Source: Candidatus Gastranaerophilales bacterium (GTDB lineage Bacteria; Cyanobacteriota; Vampirovibrionia; Gastranaerophilales; Gastranaerophilaceae). Taken from it: a stretch of DNA of 36,914 nucleotides. The stretch covers positions 1 through 36,914 of the forward strand of contig CALVEB010000022.1 of the NCBI GenBank assembly GCA_944326465.1, in the 5' to 3' direction. Within the stretch, counting starts at the first letter, position 1, and each line of letters begins with the position of its first letter. The position numbers were made by a program, and so were the translations under genes. Below the pieces are notes generated by a model. It saw only the letters and a program-made list of their open reading frames with translations, was not told the DNA's origin and did no database searches. This document shows positions 29,918-36,806 of this stretch, in pieces.

Positions 29918-29944
29918 AAAACTCCTCTTATACTGAGGAGTTTT
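29917..29944. terminator. Bidirectional terminator
   Basis: AAAACTCCTC and GAGGAGTTTT form a stem around a short TTATACT-type loop, between convergent genes. Confidence 0.85.
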
Positions 29945-29949
29945 AGAAA

Positions 29950-31614
29950 TTATGCACTATATCGCTTGAAAGATTTTTCTATATTCTTATCTATTACTGA
30001 TTTAACACTATCGTATTCTGTTGTGAGGGAAGATATTTCAGTATCAAGGTTTTTCATCTTCAAATCAAGTTCTTCTTCTTTGCTGTTTAAGCGTGCTTTT
30101 GTATTTGTATATTTTGCCTCTGCTTCTGCTATTGCGCTGTCATCAGAAACTTCTTTTATAAATGTATTAGTAGTGTAATTTTCCTGATAATAGTAACCGT
30201 CATCATCTATTGTAGAAATGAACATCATGCCGCTTTTGAGCATTTCCTGTAAGTATTCCTGATCAATGATTTCAGCGTTTTCAGTCCAGCCGTTTAAGCA
30301 TAACTGGTTGAATAAAGTATCGTAGAATAAGCCGATTTTAGCATCTTCTTCTGAAACTGTTGTTCCGGCATTAATTTTGTATATATAAGTTGGATCATCT
30401 GTTACAAGATTTGATTCATCTTTATGAGCAACCACAGCACTATAGTTAGGTTGAATAGCCAATCTTTCCATATATTGAGCAAAGTATGTCAGGAATGCTT
30501 TTGCTACGTTGTTCAGGTTCAAAGCCGCATGGTTAATGTTACGGTTATAACCCATTACACCGCCTCTGTATGTATGTGTATAAACAATACCGACATAATT
30601 TTCTGCTTCATTTTTAATTTTATCTTTATAGTCGCTGCCTTTACCTCTGTTGCCGCTATCCCATTTACCGTCAAGGCCTTTTCCAATAGTACCGATATTT
30701 TCAATACCGTGGCTGCCGCCATCGTGGTGTCCGTAACTGTTGTCGCCAACATCTGATGTATCAAACATAGATTTTGTCATGTTACGAGCATAAGCTAAGG
30801 CGTTTGCGCTTACAGGATCTACATTAAGTACTTGTGAAAATGCTTCATACATCTCATCAATAAATCCTCCGTCAGCAGAAACACTATTAGCGATGGCTTT
30901 TGCTGCTGATGCCGGATAACGTGCACCTTTTTGTGCATCAGTTAAGATCAAATATTGTTCCTGATCGTTCAATAAGTCTGCAAGATAAAACTCACTTTGT
31001 TTAGAACCATCAGCGGCATTAGAAGCCGCTCCGATATAAGAGCAATCTTGTATTTCCGGATTAACATAAACTGACAAAGAACCTAATGCGTCAATCAAGC
31101 CGTCAAGATCTGTTTCAACATATTGCGTTGAGAGCATATCTGTACTTCCGACACCGGCAGCCTGATTGTATACTGTTGACAGAATAGAATCCCTTGTTTT
31201 CTTAGAGATAACACCGCTTGTGAATAAACCTTCAACAAATGCATTACGCATATCGCTGCTAGGAAGTCCGTTTATACCTTCCTGCGGAATACCTGCCGCA
31301 CGCGCCGCTGCTGCAATACTTGAATCGACAACAACTCTGCCCTGCTGGTTGAGAATTAATGTAGGGAAGTAGTCGTTCAATGCAGAAGGCGTCATTAACA
31401 AATTATAATTCAGCGGATTTGACGTATCGCCTTTGCCATAAAAATCGTAATATAGTTTAGTTTGATTTAAAGAATTTTGATATTCATTGGATATCTCGTT
31501 TAATTCACGGGACAGCGCAATTTTCTGATGTGACAGTCTCATTGACTGGTATTCACAATCAGCCTTTCTGGATGTTATGGTTAGTAATCTTGCCTGTGAT
31601 GCTGCTAATCCCAT
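29950..31614 (-). CDS. Unknown 554-aa protein with helical N- and C-termini
   Basis: I have no firm family. Residues 1-55 (MGLAASQARLLTITSRKADC, then SHQKIALSRELNEISNEYQNSLNQTK) are amphipathic helix. The middle (~60-480) is mixed, with Asn/Gly-rich loops (YGHHDGGSHGIENIGTIGKG). Residues ~495-554 are coiled coil (KYTNTKARLNSKEEELDLKM...). Paired terminal helices around a variable middle are the architecture of flagellin-like axial proteins, but no flagellar gene is near, so that is only a shape argument. There is no signal peptide. GAAAGGAT precedes the ATG. The palindrome at 31724-31740 lies upstream. Confidence 0.75.
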   Translation of the reverse strand: MGLAASQARLLTITSRKADCEYQSMRLSHQKIALSRELNEISNEYQNSLNQTKLYYDFYGKGDTSNPLNYNLLMTPSALNDYFPTLILNQQGRVVVDSSIAAAARAAGIPQEGINGLPSSDMRNAFVEGLFTSGVISKKTRDSILSTVYNQAAGVGSTDMLSTQYVETDLDGLIDALGSLSVYVNPEIQDCSYIGAASNAADGSKQSEFYLADLLNDQEQYLILTDAQKGARYPASAAKAIANSVSADGGFIDEMYEAFSQVLNVDPVSANALAYARNMTKSMFDTSDVGDNSYGHHDGGSHGIENIGTIGKGLDGKWDSGNRGKGSDYKDKIKNEAENYVGIVYTHTYRGGVMGYNRNINHAALNLNNVAKAFLTYFAQYMERLAIQPNYSAVVAHKDESNLVTDDPTYIYKINAGTTVSEEDAKIGLFYDTLFNQLCLNGWTENAEIIDQEYLQEMLKSGMMFISTIDDDGYYYQENYTTNTFIKEVSDDSAIAEAEAKYTNTKARLNSKEEELDLKMKNLDTEISSLTTEYDSVKSVIDKNIEKSFKRYSA

Positions 31615-35645: not shown

Positions 35646-36806
35646 CTAATCACCAAGACAAACCGCCAGTTCGAGGTACTTGCGGCGGGTGCCGTCGCTC
35701 GCGCTCGTGCGGTCAGAGGTGAATTCACGTCCATATGCGTAGCGGCCGACAGACTCCTGCCCTGACCAAATAGCGAATTCGCCGCTTGGTCTGCCTGATA
35801 CTGAGTCGCCGTATACTGCATCAAGAATTGATACGTAGGACTTGGTCTTGTCCATGGTTAAGCCATCTTTGTATTCGTAGCCGCTTGTACTAAATCCATG
35901 ATCACCATACAAATCAGTTGCTATCTCTGCTAGTTGTGCAGGTGTTGGCATGTTCTGGACTCCGCCGCAGTGTTTTACTGCTCCTGCCCAGTAATCGTTG
36001 TCATAATGGCATTCTTTTATTCCTAAAGTACCTTCTTGTACAGCCTGTTCACATTCTGCAAGTGTCATTGGTGTTGGCAATGCAGGATTTGTATAACATG
36101 TGCCATTTACCTCAAAGGCACATTCAATACCACCTAAAGAAAGAACGTTGCCGTTAGCTCTTAAGTCTTTGCCATAGCTGTTCGGGTTCTTTTTTGCGCT
36201 CACATCATAAAGTATTGCCATGCAATTAGATGCCTGAATCTGGTTGTTATATGGGTCTTGGGTGCAATTCGGGTCATAAGCAATAAGTGCGTCAATGCCG
36301 TTTGCAAACTGTGCACCTATAACTTCTGTCCCCCAGTTATCCTGTCCCATGTTTTTAGCGTTTTTTATATCCTTTTCTACATCTATTTCTTCTTGCTCTG
36401 CGCCCCAGAATACTTTTTCAGGGAAACATTTTGTTAATTCATCATTATCGCATATTCTTGTTATTTTGATATGTTTTTTTAGTTCTGTAACAAAGTCTTT
36501 GGTGTTTGAATAACCTGCTAAGGTTTCCTGTGTATTCATGACACGGGCTGCGACTTCTAGGCGTTTATTGAAGACATCTGCTGCTGTATCCCATGCTTTC
36601 TGATTGTTGTTCTGCATAAGGTTTGGGATGGTCAGTACTGCCACTATTCCGATAACCGCGAGGGTGATGAGCACCTCGGCTAACGTAAACGCGGCCGCTT
36701 TTGAAGTGATTAAGTGACTAAGTGATTGAGTGATTAAGTGGTTACAGGAATTAGTGCCTGTTGTTCTGTGACGATTAACGTCTTTTTCAATTTTTTTGTT
36801 TTTCAT
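35646..36806 (-). CDS. Type IV prepilin/pseudopilin-like protein with long leader
   Basis: The 386-residue protein has a class III prepilin signal: a 39-residue positively charged leader, cleavage between Ala39 and Phe40 (SKAAA/FTLAEVLITLAVIGIVAV), and Glu at +5, then one hydrophobic helix ending in TIPNLM. Ala replaces the usual Gly before the cleavage site. The soluble domain has about ten cysteines, suggesting disulphides, and a C-terminal region with GRPSGEFAIWSGQE. The leader includes HLITQSLSHLITS, coded by five 8-bp repeats. AGGAGA precedes the ATG. It is a likely substrate of the peptidase at 18192-19226. The large size suits a minor pilin or an adhesin-like pseudopilin. Confidence 0.88.
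   Translation of the reverse strand: MKNKKIEKDVNRHRTTGTNSCNHLITQSLSHLITSKAAAFTLAEVLITLAVIGIVAVLTIPNLMQNNNQKAWDTAADVFNKRLEVAARVMNTQETLAGYSNTKDFVTELKKHIKITRICDNDELTKCFPEKVFWGAEQEEIDVEKDIKNAKNMGQDNWGTEVIGAQFANGIDALIAYDPNCTQDPYNNQIQASNCMAILYDVSAKKNPNSYGKDLRANGNVLSLGGIECAFEVNGTCYTNPALPTPMTLAECEQAVQEGTLGIKECHYDNDYWAGAVKHCGGVQNMPTPAQLAEIATDLYGDHGFSTSGYEYKDGLTMDKTKSYVSILDAVYGDSVSGRPSGEFAIWSGQESVGRYAYGREFTSDRTSASDGTRRKYLELAVCLGD
36705..36744 (-). repeat. Five 8-bp tandem repeats inside the prepilin leader
   Basis: On the plus strand the units are AGTGATTA, AGTGACTA, AGTGATTG, AGTGATTA and AGTGGTTA. Since 8 is not a multiple of 3, gain or loss of one unit shifts the frame before the cleavage site, as in phase-variable loci. 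Confidence 0.9.

Follow-up and report, generated by a model that had tools for sequence, protein, structure and literature searches.

An unnamed multicopy protein family of Gastranaerophilales with predicted helices at its conserved ends and a distribution shared with a separate clade of FlhA-type export gates

Flagellins and hook-associated proteins have conserved N- and C-terminal helices and a variable middle between them, and in the D0 part of these proteins the two ends fold back into a helical pair. The needle and inner-rod proteins of type III systems, SctF and SctI, are small and helical.

In the accessible part of Di Rienzi et al. 2013 (PMC3787301), MEL.A1 is described without filament, cap, junction, and L/P rings, which was read as genome reduction; the flagellar trees of the same source contain flgG (twice), flgC, fliF, fliH, flhA, fliI, and flgE (one ACD20 scaffold), and a second flhA. 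From what was accessible of the later papers, complete flagellar sets were found in three of nine Gastranaerophilales genomes, with loss inferred (Soo et al. 2014, PMC4040986), a flagellum was assigned to Vampirovibrio and loss to Gastranaerophilales (Soo et al. 2015, PMC4451040), and a termite member richer in flagellar genes was inferred to be motile (Utami et al. 2018, PMC5877343). The accessible text of these four papers and of PMC7018530 and PMC12199754 mentions neither a second machine nor a family such as the one described below. The same holds for the literature on flagella and secretion in Gastranaerophilales, Melainabacteria, and Vampirovibrionia, so far as its accessible parts extend (mostly open papers, without bioRxiv), and no mention of the motif MGLAASQA was found in the literature searched.

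The window analyzed here is a stretch of 36,914 nucleotides from Candidatus Gastranaerophilales bacterium, contig 22 (CALVEB010000022.1) of the 52 contigs in a 2.07-Mb assembly (GCA_944326465.1). The open reading frame at 29950-31614, first proposed in a sequence-only reading that gave no strand, was confirmed on the minus strand from the ORF list, the translation, and relatives in its own genome and across the order. It starts with ATG, has its stop codon at the low end, and encodes 554 amino acids; the plus strand across the same interval is full of stops. The translation contains both the N-terminus described in that reading, MGLAASQARLLTITSRK, and a coiled-coil-like C-terminus. A perfect 10-bp inverted repeat read from the sequence, AAAACTCCTC/GAGGAGTTTT (29918-29944, no strand assigned), is terminator-like and sits between this gene and a convergent acyltransferase gene (Pfam PF01553). 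The gene is not adjacent to export genes. Farther along the window, positions 35646-36806 encode a pilin-like protein whose N-terminus carries a type IV methylation motif scoring slightly under the Pfam cut-off; similar AFTLAEVLITL proteins are common, by eye, near genes of the family considered here.

The Pfam scan of the 554-aa protein detected no family at the cut-off (best E 0.13), PHROG contained nothing for it, and 27 of its relatives compared with NCBIfam and Pfam gave scattered weak matches, each in at most three of the 27. PDB sequence searches with family profiles produced coiled-coil-like or marginal matches only, the best of them between the small form of the family and a coiled coil (E 0.0017). 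One 107-aa small member had two weak PHROG matches of unknown function (E 0.005-0.006). The absence of any known family, noted from the sequence alone, thus extends to Pfam, NCBIfam, PHROG, and PDB. The suggestion that the N-terminus would make a good probe for a lineage-specific family also proved correct: a genome-collection scan gave 508 relatives, and the titles of the best 80 are Gastranaerophilales, Melainabacteria, Cyanobacteria, or generic or apparently misnamed MAGs. Family members occur in records titled Fusobacterium, Brachyspira, Clostridiaceae, and Ruminococcaceae (L038, L048, L057, L073), which are probably misnamed MAGs.

A protein search of the window's own genome yielded 16 matches, and the loci read contain eight large members of 392-661 aa, scattered over the genome. 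The N-terminus MG[LM][AS]ASQAR is present in all large members and their last 70-80 residues are alike; the middles are hardly alignable. Two small members of 107 aa are encoded at L017:2938-3261 (E 1.5e-9 with the C-terminal profile) and, a weaker case, at L147:1875-2198 (E 1.5e-4). The latter represents a third small type, MTFLAxDxQK, also seen at L046:2103-2504 and L048:2816-3166; it matches the C-terminal profile weakly and adjoins a folD-like gene (by eye) at all three loci.

The C-terminal profile, built from 49 sequences and applied at E <= 1e-5, matches all 241 genomes of the order, with 2-20 matches in each. This distribution, together with the eight large paralogues of one genome, places the family far from chance. 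In a phylum sample the same profile matches 131 of 292 genomes, every one a member of the order, and gives zero matches in the five class-mates from outside the order shown there (f8). The N-terminal profile matches 23 of 60 class genomes: 11 of f1, which is the window's own family of genomes, and 8, 3, and 1 of f46, f50, and f51, further families of the class; it has no matches in the class genomes of f8 (11), f45 (10), f47 (9), f48 (5), and f49 (2). Judged by its sequence, the window protein is a member of a new, unnamed, order-wide family, which, within the genomes searched, appears to be restricted to non-photosynthetic Cyanobacteriota, namely Gastranaerophilales and three further families of the class.

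An AlphaFold2 model of the window protein based on 27 relatives (mean pLDDT 80.1, pTM 0.46, moderate as a whole) has, by DSSP, a predicted N-terminal helix of 48 residues (residues 2-49; 31468-31611, minus strand) and a predicted C-terminal helix of 62 residues (residues 492-553; 29956-30141, minus strand). Both helix blocks have pLDDT values of 82-92, the last residues excepted. The variable middle delimited by alignments, the model, and profile comparison (residues 50-491; 30142-31467, minus strand) is mixed in the model, and its residues 292-325 fall under a pLDDT of 50. Terminal helices recur when a second member is modeled from eight sequences, at low overall confidence (residues 2-51 and 312-372; pLDDT 55.9, middle unreliable). 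Helices at both ends of a variable middle had been anticipated from the sequence and are found in these predictions; the amphipathic character ascribed to the N-terminal helix found no statistical support, the hydrophobic moment of residues 2-37 being not above that of shuffled sequences (fraction as high 0.53). For the C-terminal residues 530-553 the moment is borderline (fraction as high 0.07).

The two predicted ends are also a protein in their own right. In f46, f50, and f51 a 109-aa version of the family comprises just the two ends and lacks a middle: the family N-terminal profile matches its residues 1-42 (hhalign 98.9%, E 2.3e-17) and the C-terminal profile its residues 60-109 (97.4%, E 1.1e-11). 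Among the N-terminal profile matches listed for these three families, the frames are short (109-147 aa). The 87 large members examined are 357-817 aa long, and members in the f1 cassette described below are 324-599 aa long; since both profiles match the 109-aa form, the large proteins can be regarded as a 109-aa hairpin with roughly 210-710 aa inserted, and residues 50-491 of the window protein as such an insert. We infer that the 109-aa form is the ancestral one. Over the first 35 residues of the 87 large members, the highest 11-residue hydrophobicity mean is 1.27, and thus, by this simple measure used in place of a signal-peptide program, they have no Sec-type hydrophobic core.

The sequence-only reading had compared the ends of the protein with those of flagellins and proposed an axial role. 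In the predicted structure the comparison stands as far as the end-helix architecture is concerned; kinship in sequence to flagellins or flagellar axial proteins was not found. Comparison of the family ends by hhalign with profiles of flagellin, FliE, FlgB/C/F/G, hook-like, and FliJ-like proteins gave probabilities of at most 1.5% (the FlgB and hook-like profiles being single sequences and the flagellin profile six flagellins), and the N and C ends of flagellin gave 0.2-0.7%. The flagellin model PF00669 is unmatched by the window protein (E up to 1) and has zero matches in the own genome. Homology to flagellin or hook proteins was thus rejected at the sequence level by the Pfam and NCBIfam searches and by hhalign. 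For the 19 small members compared, no needle or rod family is among the 25 of 29 matched families listed.

Foldseek detected nothing significant with the window model (best E 0.34). VIA-align places both ends jointly on coiled-coil hairpins, including MukB (Z 10.6, 114 residues, 2.3 A) and colicin Ia (Z 9.7). The pairing of the terminal helices, which had been chosen beforehand as the structural check, is therefore present in the predicted model. Several flagellar assemblies are matched as well: 9gnz_U from the Salmonella cap-filament complex (Z 9.0), 9u4r_AE (8.2), 9m6h_A, a FliD-FliC complex (7.5), and 9gsx_L from the hook-filament junction-cap (5.2). Because unrelated coiled coils score as high, the likeness to cap complexes does not separate a flagellar fold from that of coiled coils in general.

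The distribution of flagellar genes bears directly on a role in motility. Every one of the 241 order genomes has FHIPEP, the domain of the FlhA/SctV family. The scores cluster near 870 bits for type I, near 730 bits for type II, and near 160 bits where the match is to the C-domain only. Type I FlhA, assigned at a best E < 1e-240, occurs in 91 genomes, all of which also encode flagellin; six genomes have flagellin without type I FlhA (G009, G020, G095, G154, G218, G240), and 144, including the window's own, have neither. Since type I FlhA and flagellin go together and the family is found in all 241 genomes, the family does not follow the swimming flagellum. That its members are filament, junction, or cap parts of an ordinary swimming flagellum would agree with their predicted flagellin-like ends and with structural matches to flagellar cap complexes that rank among the better ones (Z 9.0 and 7.5); however, the family persists in all 144 genomes without flagellin and type I FlhA and has no sequence similarity to flagellin or rod and hook proteins, which makes this explanation very improbable. 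Four genomes (G045, G121, G218, G238) keep the family with FHIPEP scores of C-domain scale only, for which assembly gaps are possible. Matches to the cytoplasmic domain of FHIPEP only were also observed in every f1 genome of the class sample (11 of 11); the own genome encodes a separate 491-aa protein of this kind (L026:15444-16916, own contig 17), and in G428 a 289-aa protein (L201:9001-9867) lies beside the type II flhA of the IIa group.

In a maximum-likelihood tree of 46 FHIPEP sequences, type II forms a clade of its own (28 rows, 100/99), apart from type I, which clusters with the Thermomicrobium FlhA, and from four SctV proteins. Within it, group IIa (100/100) unites eight f1 rows with the second FHIPEP found in each of the 12 f46/f50/f51 genomes, and IIb contains the rows of f8, f47, and f48. 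The SctV proteins, four rows, cluster by themselves (100/100), and IIa and IIb fall on the flagellar FlhA side, so grouping of the gate with the injectisome type is not seen in this tree, in which, according to a warning of the tool, long branches meet at the division between SctV and FlhA/IIa/IIb. From the 60-genome class sample the tree contains one of the 11 f1 genomes (G018), four of 11 f8, two of nine f47, and two of five f48. Two f47 genomes, G422 and G418 (L214-L217), have two full-length FHIPEPs, the first on a long branch beside type I and the second within IIb, and no family match.

The N-terminal family profile, the partner protein described below, and gate IIa coincide in 23 of the 60 class genomes, 13 of which are placed in IIa by the tree (the 12 of f46/f50/f51 and G018) and the other ten, all f1, by score and kinship. 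The family and the partner are absent from 24 other class genomes with FHIPEP and from 13 without it. The idea that the protein belongs with a secretion system is borne out to the extent that the family shares its distribution with a distinct FlhA clade. As far as sequences can tell, this co-occurrence may reflect shared ancestry rather than shared function, because one lineage event explains the division into 23 and 37 class genomes. IIa coexists with ordinary flagellar FlhA in the same f46/f50/f51 genomes.

In the window's own genome FHIPEP IIa and FliP are both encoded, and a type III export gate is thus present; there is no match to flagellin or to type I FlhA. FliE, FliF, FliH, and FlhA are encoded in one cluster, FlgB/C/F/G-like proteins in another, and a hook-like protein with a FliK-like match below the cut-off in a third, with fliP elsewhere; the four places matched by PF00460 all lie within the separate rod- and hook-like clusters. 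The gene in the position of fliG between fliF and fliH (L028:14552-15571) has no FliG match and a weak MgtE_N match.

A conserved neighbor was found for the family. In the own genome a cassette contains a member (L017:309-1583) followed by genes for a 272-aa partner (MAYKNDSYLV...), a 90-aa protein, and a 107-aa small member. The partner has a Gly/Ala-rich hydrophobic stretch and a coiled-coil-like C-end, and the class genomes that encode it (23 of 60) are the very ones that match the N-terminal family profile. At all 24 loci studied (22 of the 23 family genomes, all except G023, plus G060 and the own genome) a family member lies immediately upstream of the partner gene on the same strand, at a distance of 9-144 bp. 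This member is 108-113 aa long in f46/f50/f51 (one of 138 aa has an earlier start) and 324-599 aa in f1. The hydrophobic maximum of the partner is a 19-residue mean of 1.3-1.7. Its weak matches to a bacterial dynamin-like helical domain (E 0.019, one of 13) and to 2j68 (E 0.096) are a hint only, and kinship of its C-end to the family C-end was rejected, the match being weak (hhalign 19.7%, E 0.0012). The 90-aa protein between the partner and the second small member (L017:2654-2926) has no PHROG match and has look-alikes in several f1 cassettes.

Among the 11 f1 genomes in the class sample, seven have the partner gene 7.0-10.4 kb from flhA and four have the two on separate contigs; linkage is seen in G060 as well. 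In f46/f50/f51 they lie on separate contigs in 11 of 12 genomes and 74 kb apart in one. No member is tagged upstream of flhA, the one side read, in seven other f1 genomes (G058, G081, G107, G132, G174, G175, G216), and in four f46/f50 genomes none is tagged on either side of the gene. A general rule that the cassette is linked to flhA was accordingly rejected, since no member was tagged on the side read in those seven f1 genomes and the linkage was not found in f46/f50/f51. In the own genome the cassette opens one contig and fliE closes another, an arrangement that would fit their adjacency without showing it.

These data are relevant to the possibility that the proteins are cytoplasmic or envelope coiled-coil scaffolds unrelated to type III export, whose co-distribution with IIa would reflect common descent only. 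A single lineage event suffices for the distribution, no member is tagged near flhA in 11 of the regions read, and the helix pair matches unrelated coiled coils, for example MukB at the Z-score given above. On the other hand, the partner is linked to flhA in seven of 11 f1 genomes, related as these are, the member-partner pair is kept at every one of the 24 loci, and the hydrophobic segment of the partner is unlike a plain cytoplasmic scaffold. We consider the scaffold explanation unlikely.

A phage origin was considered because of gene neighborhoods. In the own genome, portal and terminase genes (Pfam; L018:315-3388, own contig 9) lie upstream of a member, and the stretch continues into secA. 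Portal and terminase look-alikes (by eye) precede members in the IMG/VR contigs L165-L171 as well, with secA following in L166. Among 80 loci with members, a terminase is near 19, a portal near 14, and a terminase together with secA near four; the recurrent stretch could be a domesticated phage or gene-transfer-agent module. Nevertheless, a search of 50,697 phage records returned zero matches to the family, the window protein has no PHROG, the stretch runs on into secA both in the own genome and in L166, and every genome of the order searched has the family. Phage origin was rejected on the records and PHROG, and the reading of these proteins as phage-derived structural genes is extremely improbable, in spite of the terminases near 19 members and the look-alikes in IMG/VR.

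The explanation that we favor, with somewhat more confidence than doubt, is that IIa is a flagellum-derived type III machine distinct from the swimming flagellum, and that it exports the window protein together with its paralogues, at least eight axial-type subunits in all. The conserved ends would fold back as a helical pair, carry the export signal, and polymerize, and the middle, different from one paralogue to another, would be a surface domain. In its simplest form the subunit would be the two-helix protein of 109 aa whose gene adjoins that of the partner in the related families; in f1 genomes, domains of roughly 210-710 aa would have been inserted between the helices and the gene multiplied. 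Export through IIa, polymerization, surface display, and a non-motile function of the family proteins are what we infer from the predicted architecture and the shared distribution. Also in favor are the separate FlhA clade, the constant member-partner pair, the partner-flhA proximity in seven f1 genomes, the rod- and hook-like genes of a genome with no flagellin match, the independence from the swimming flagellum, and the missing Sec-type core. Weighing against it are a possible common ancestry of family and IIa, the four genomes with C-domain-scale FHIPEP scores, the position of the window gene away from export genes, the regions near flhA with no tagged member, the separation of partner and flhA in f46/f50/f51, the lack of sequence kinship to axial proteins, the moderate model, and the gene at the fliG position that gives no FliG match.

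Alternatively, the proteins could be secreted and not structural, with the ends serving as an export and chaperone-binding signal and the middles being adhesins or effectors released via IIa unpolymerized. Several paralogues per genome with unrelated middles, their scattered genomic positions, and the missing Sec-type core would suit such a role. Effectors usually carry an N-terminal signal only, however, and in this family both ends are conserved and the 109-aa form comprises the ends without cargo, so that a structural subunit suits the data better than an effector; we regard release of this kind as improbable.

An extension of the axial-subunit explanation, which we offer tentatively and hold to be less probable than not, is a third type III machine, neither swimming flagellum nor SctV injectisome. 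Here the IIa basal body and gate would build a needle or filament of the 109-aa hairpin, the partner would be a tip or membrane-inserting component, and insert-bearing subunits would cover the filament in Gastranaerophilales.

If the axial-subunit explanation is true, what has been described as 'incomplete flagella' in a common gut order would be a conserved dedicated secretion machine and not decay, and a multicopy substrate family found in each of the 241 order genomes searched would belong to it. These little-studied bacteria would then have a concrete means of contact with hosts or neighbors, and the machine would be a natural case in which a type III gate has taken on new axial proteins. 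The MG[LM]xASQAR end, the partner gene, and FlhA IIa are available as probes.

Compared with known systems, the family resembles flagellin (PF00669) and FlgK, FlgL, and FliD in its conserved terminal helices (predicted here), variable middle, several paralogues, and lack of a Sec-type core, and differs from them in having no sequence or profile similarity, in occurring in genomes without flagellin, and in possessing a 109-aa form without the middle. This 109-aa form is similar to SctF, SctI, and FliE in being small, probably helical, and found in genomes with a type III gate; it differs in that no needle or rod family is among the matches listed for the small members, and FliE, with a weak similarity to YscI, is encoded separately in the own genome. 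No lineage-specific multicopy candidate substrate family is known from Buchnera. The rod, FliF, FliH, FlhA, and FliI genes in the flagellar trees of PMC3787301, as far as the accessible part of that source goes, probably include the IIa set. Whereas the accessible parts of PMC3787301 and PMC4040986 describe the flagella of Gastranaerophilales as 'lost', FlhA IIa is here a separate clade with a dedicated protein family, and since it also coexists with ordinary FlhA in f46/f50/f51, IIa is more than a vestige of that flagellum which drives swimming. A parallel is provided by the flagellar basal bodies of Buchnera (PMC8109811, in its accessible part), where, as here, gene clusters for the basal body and export apparatus are kept in a non-flagellated lineage.
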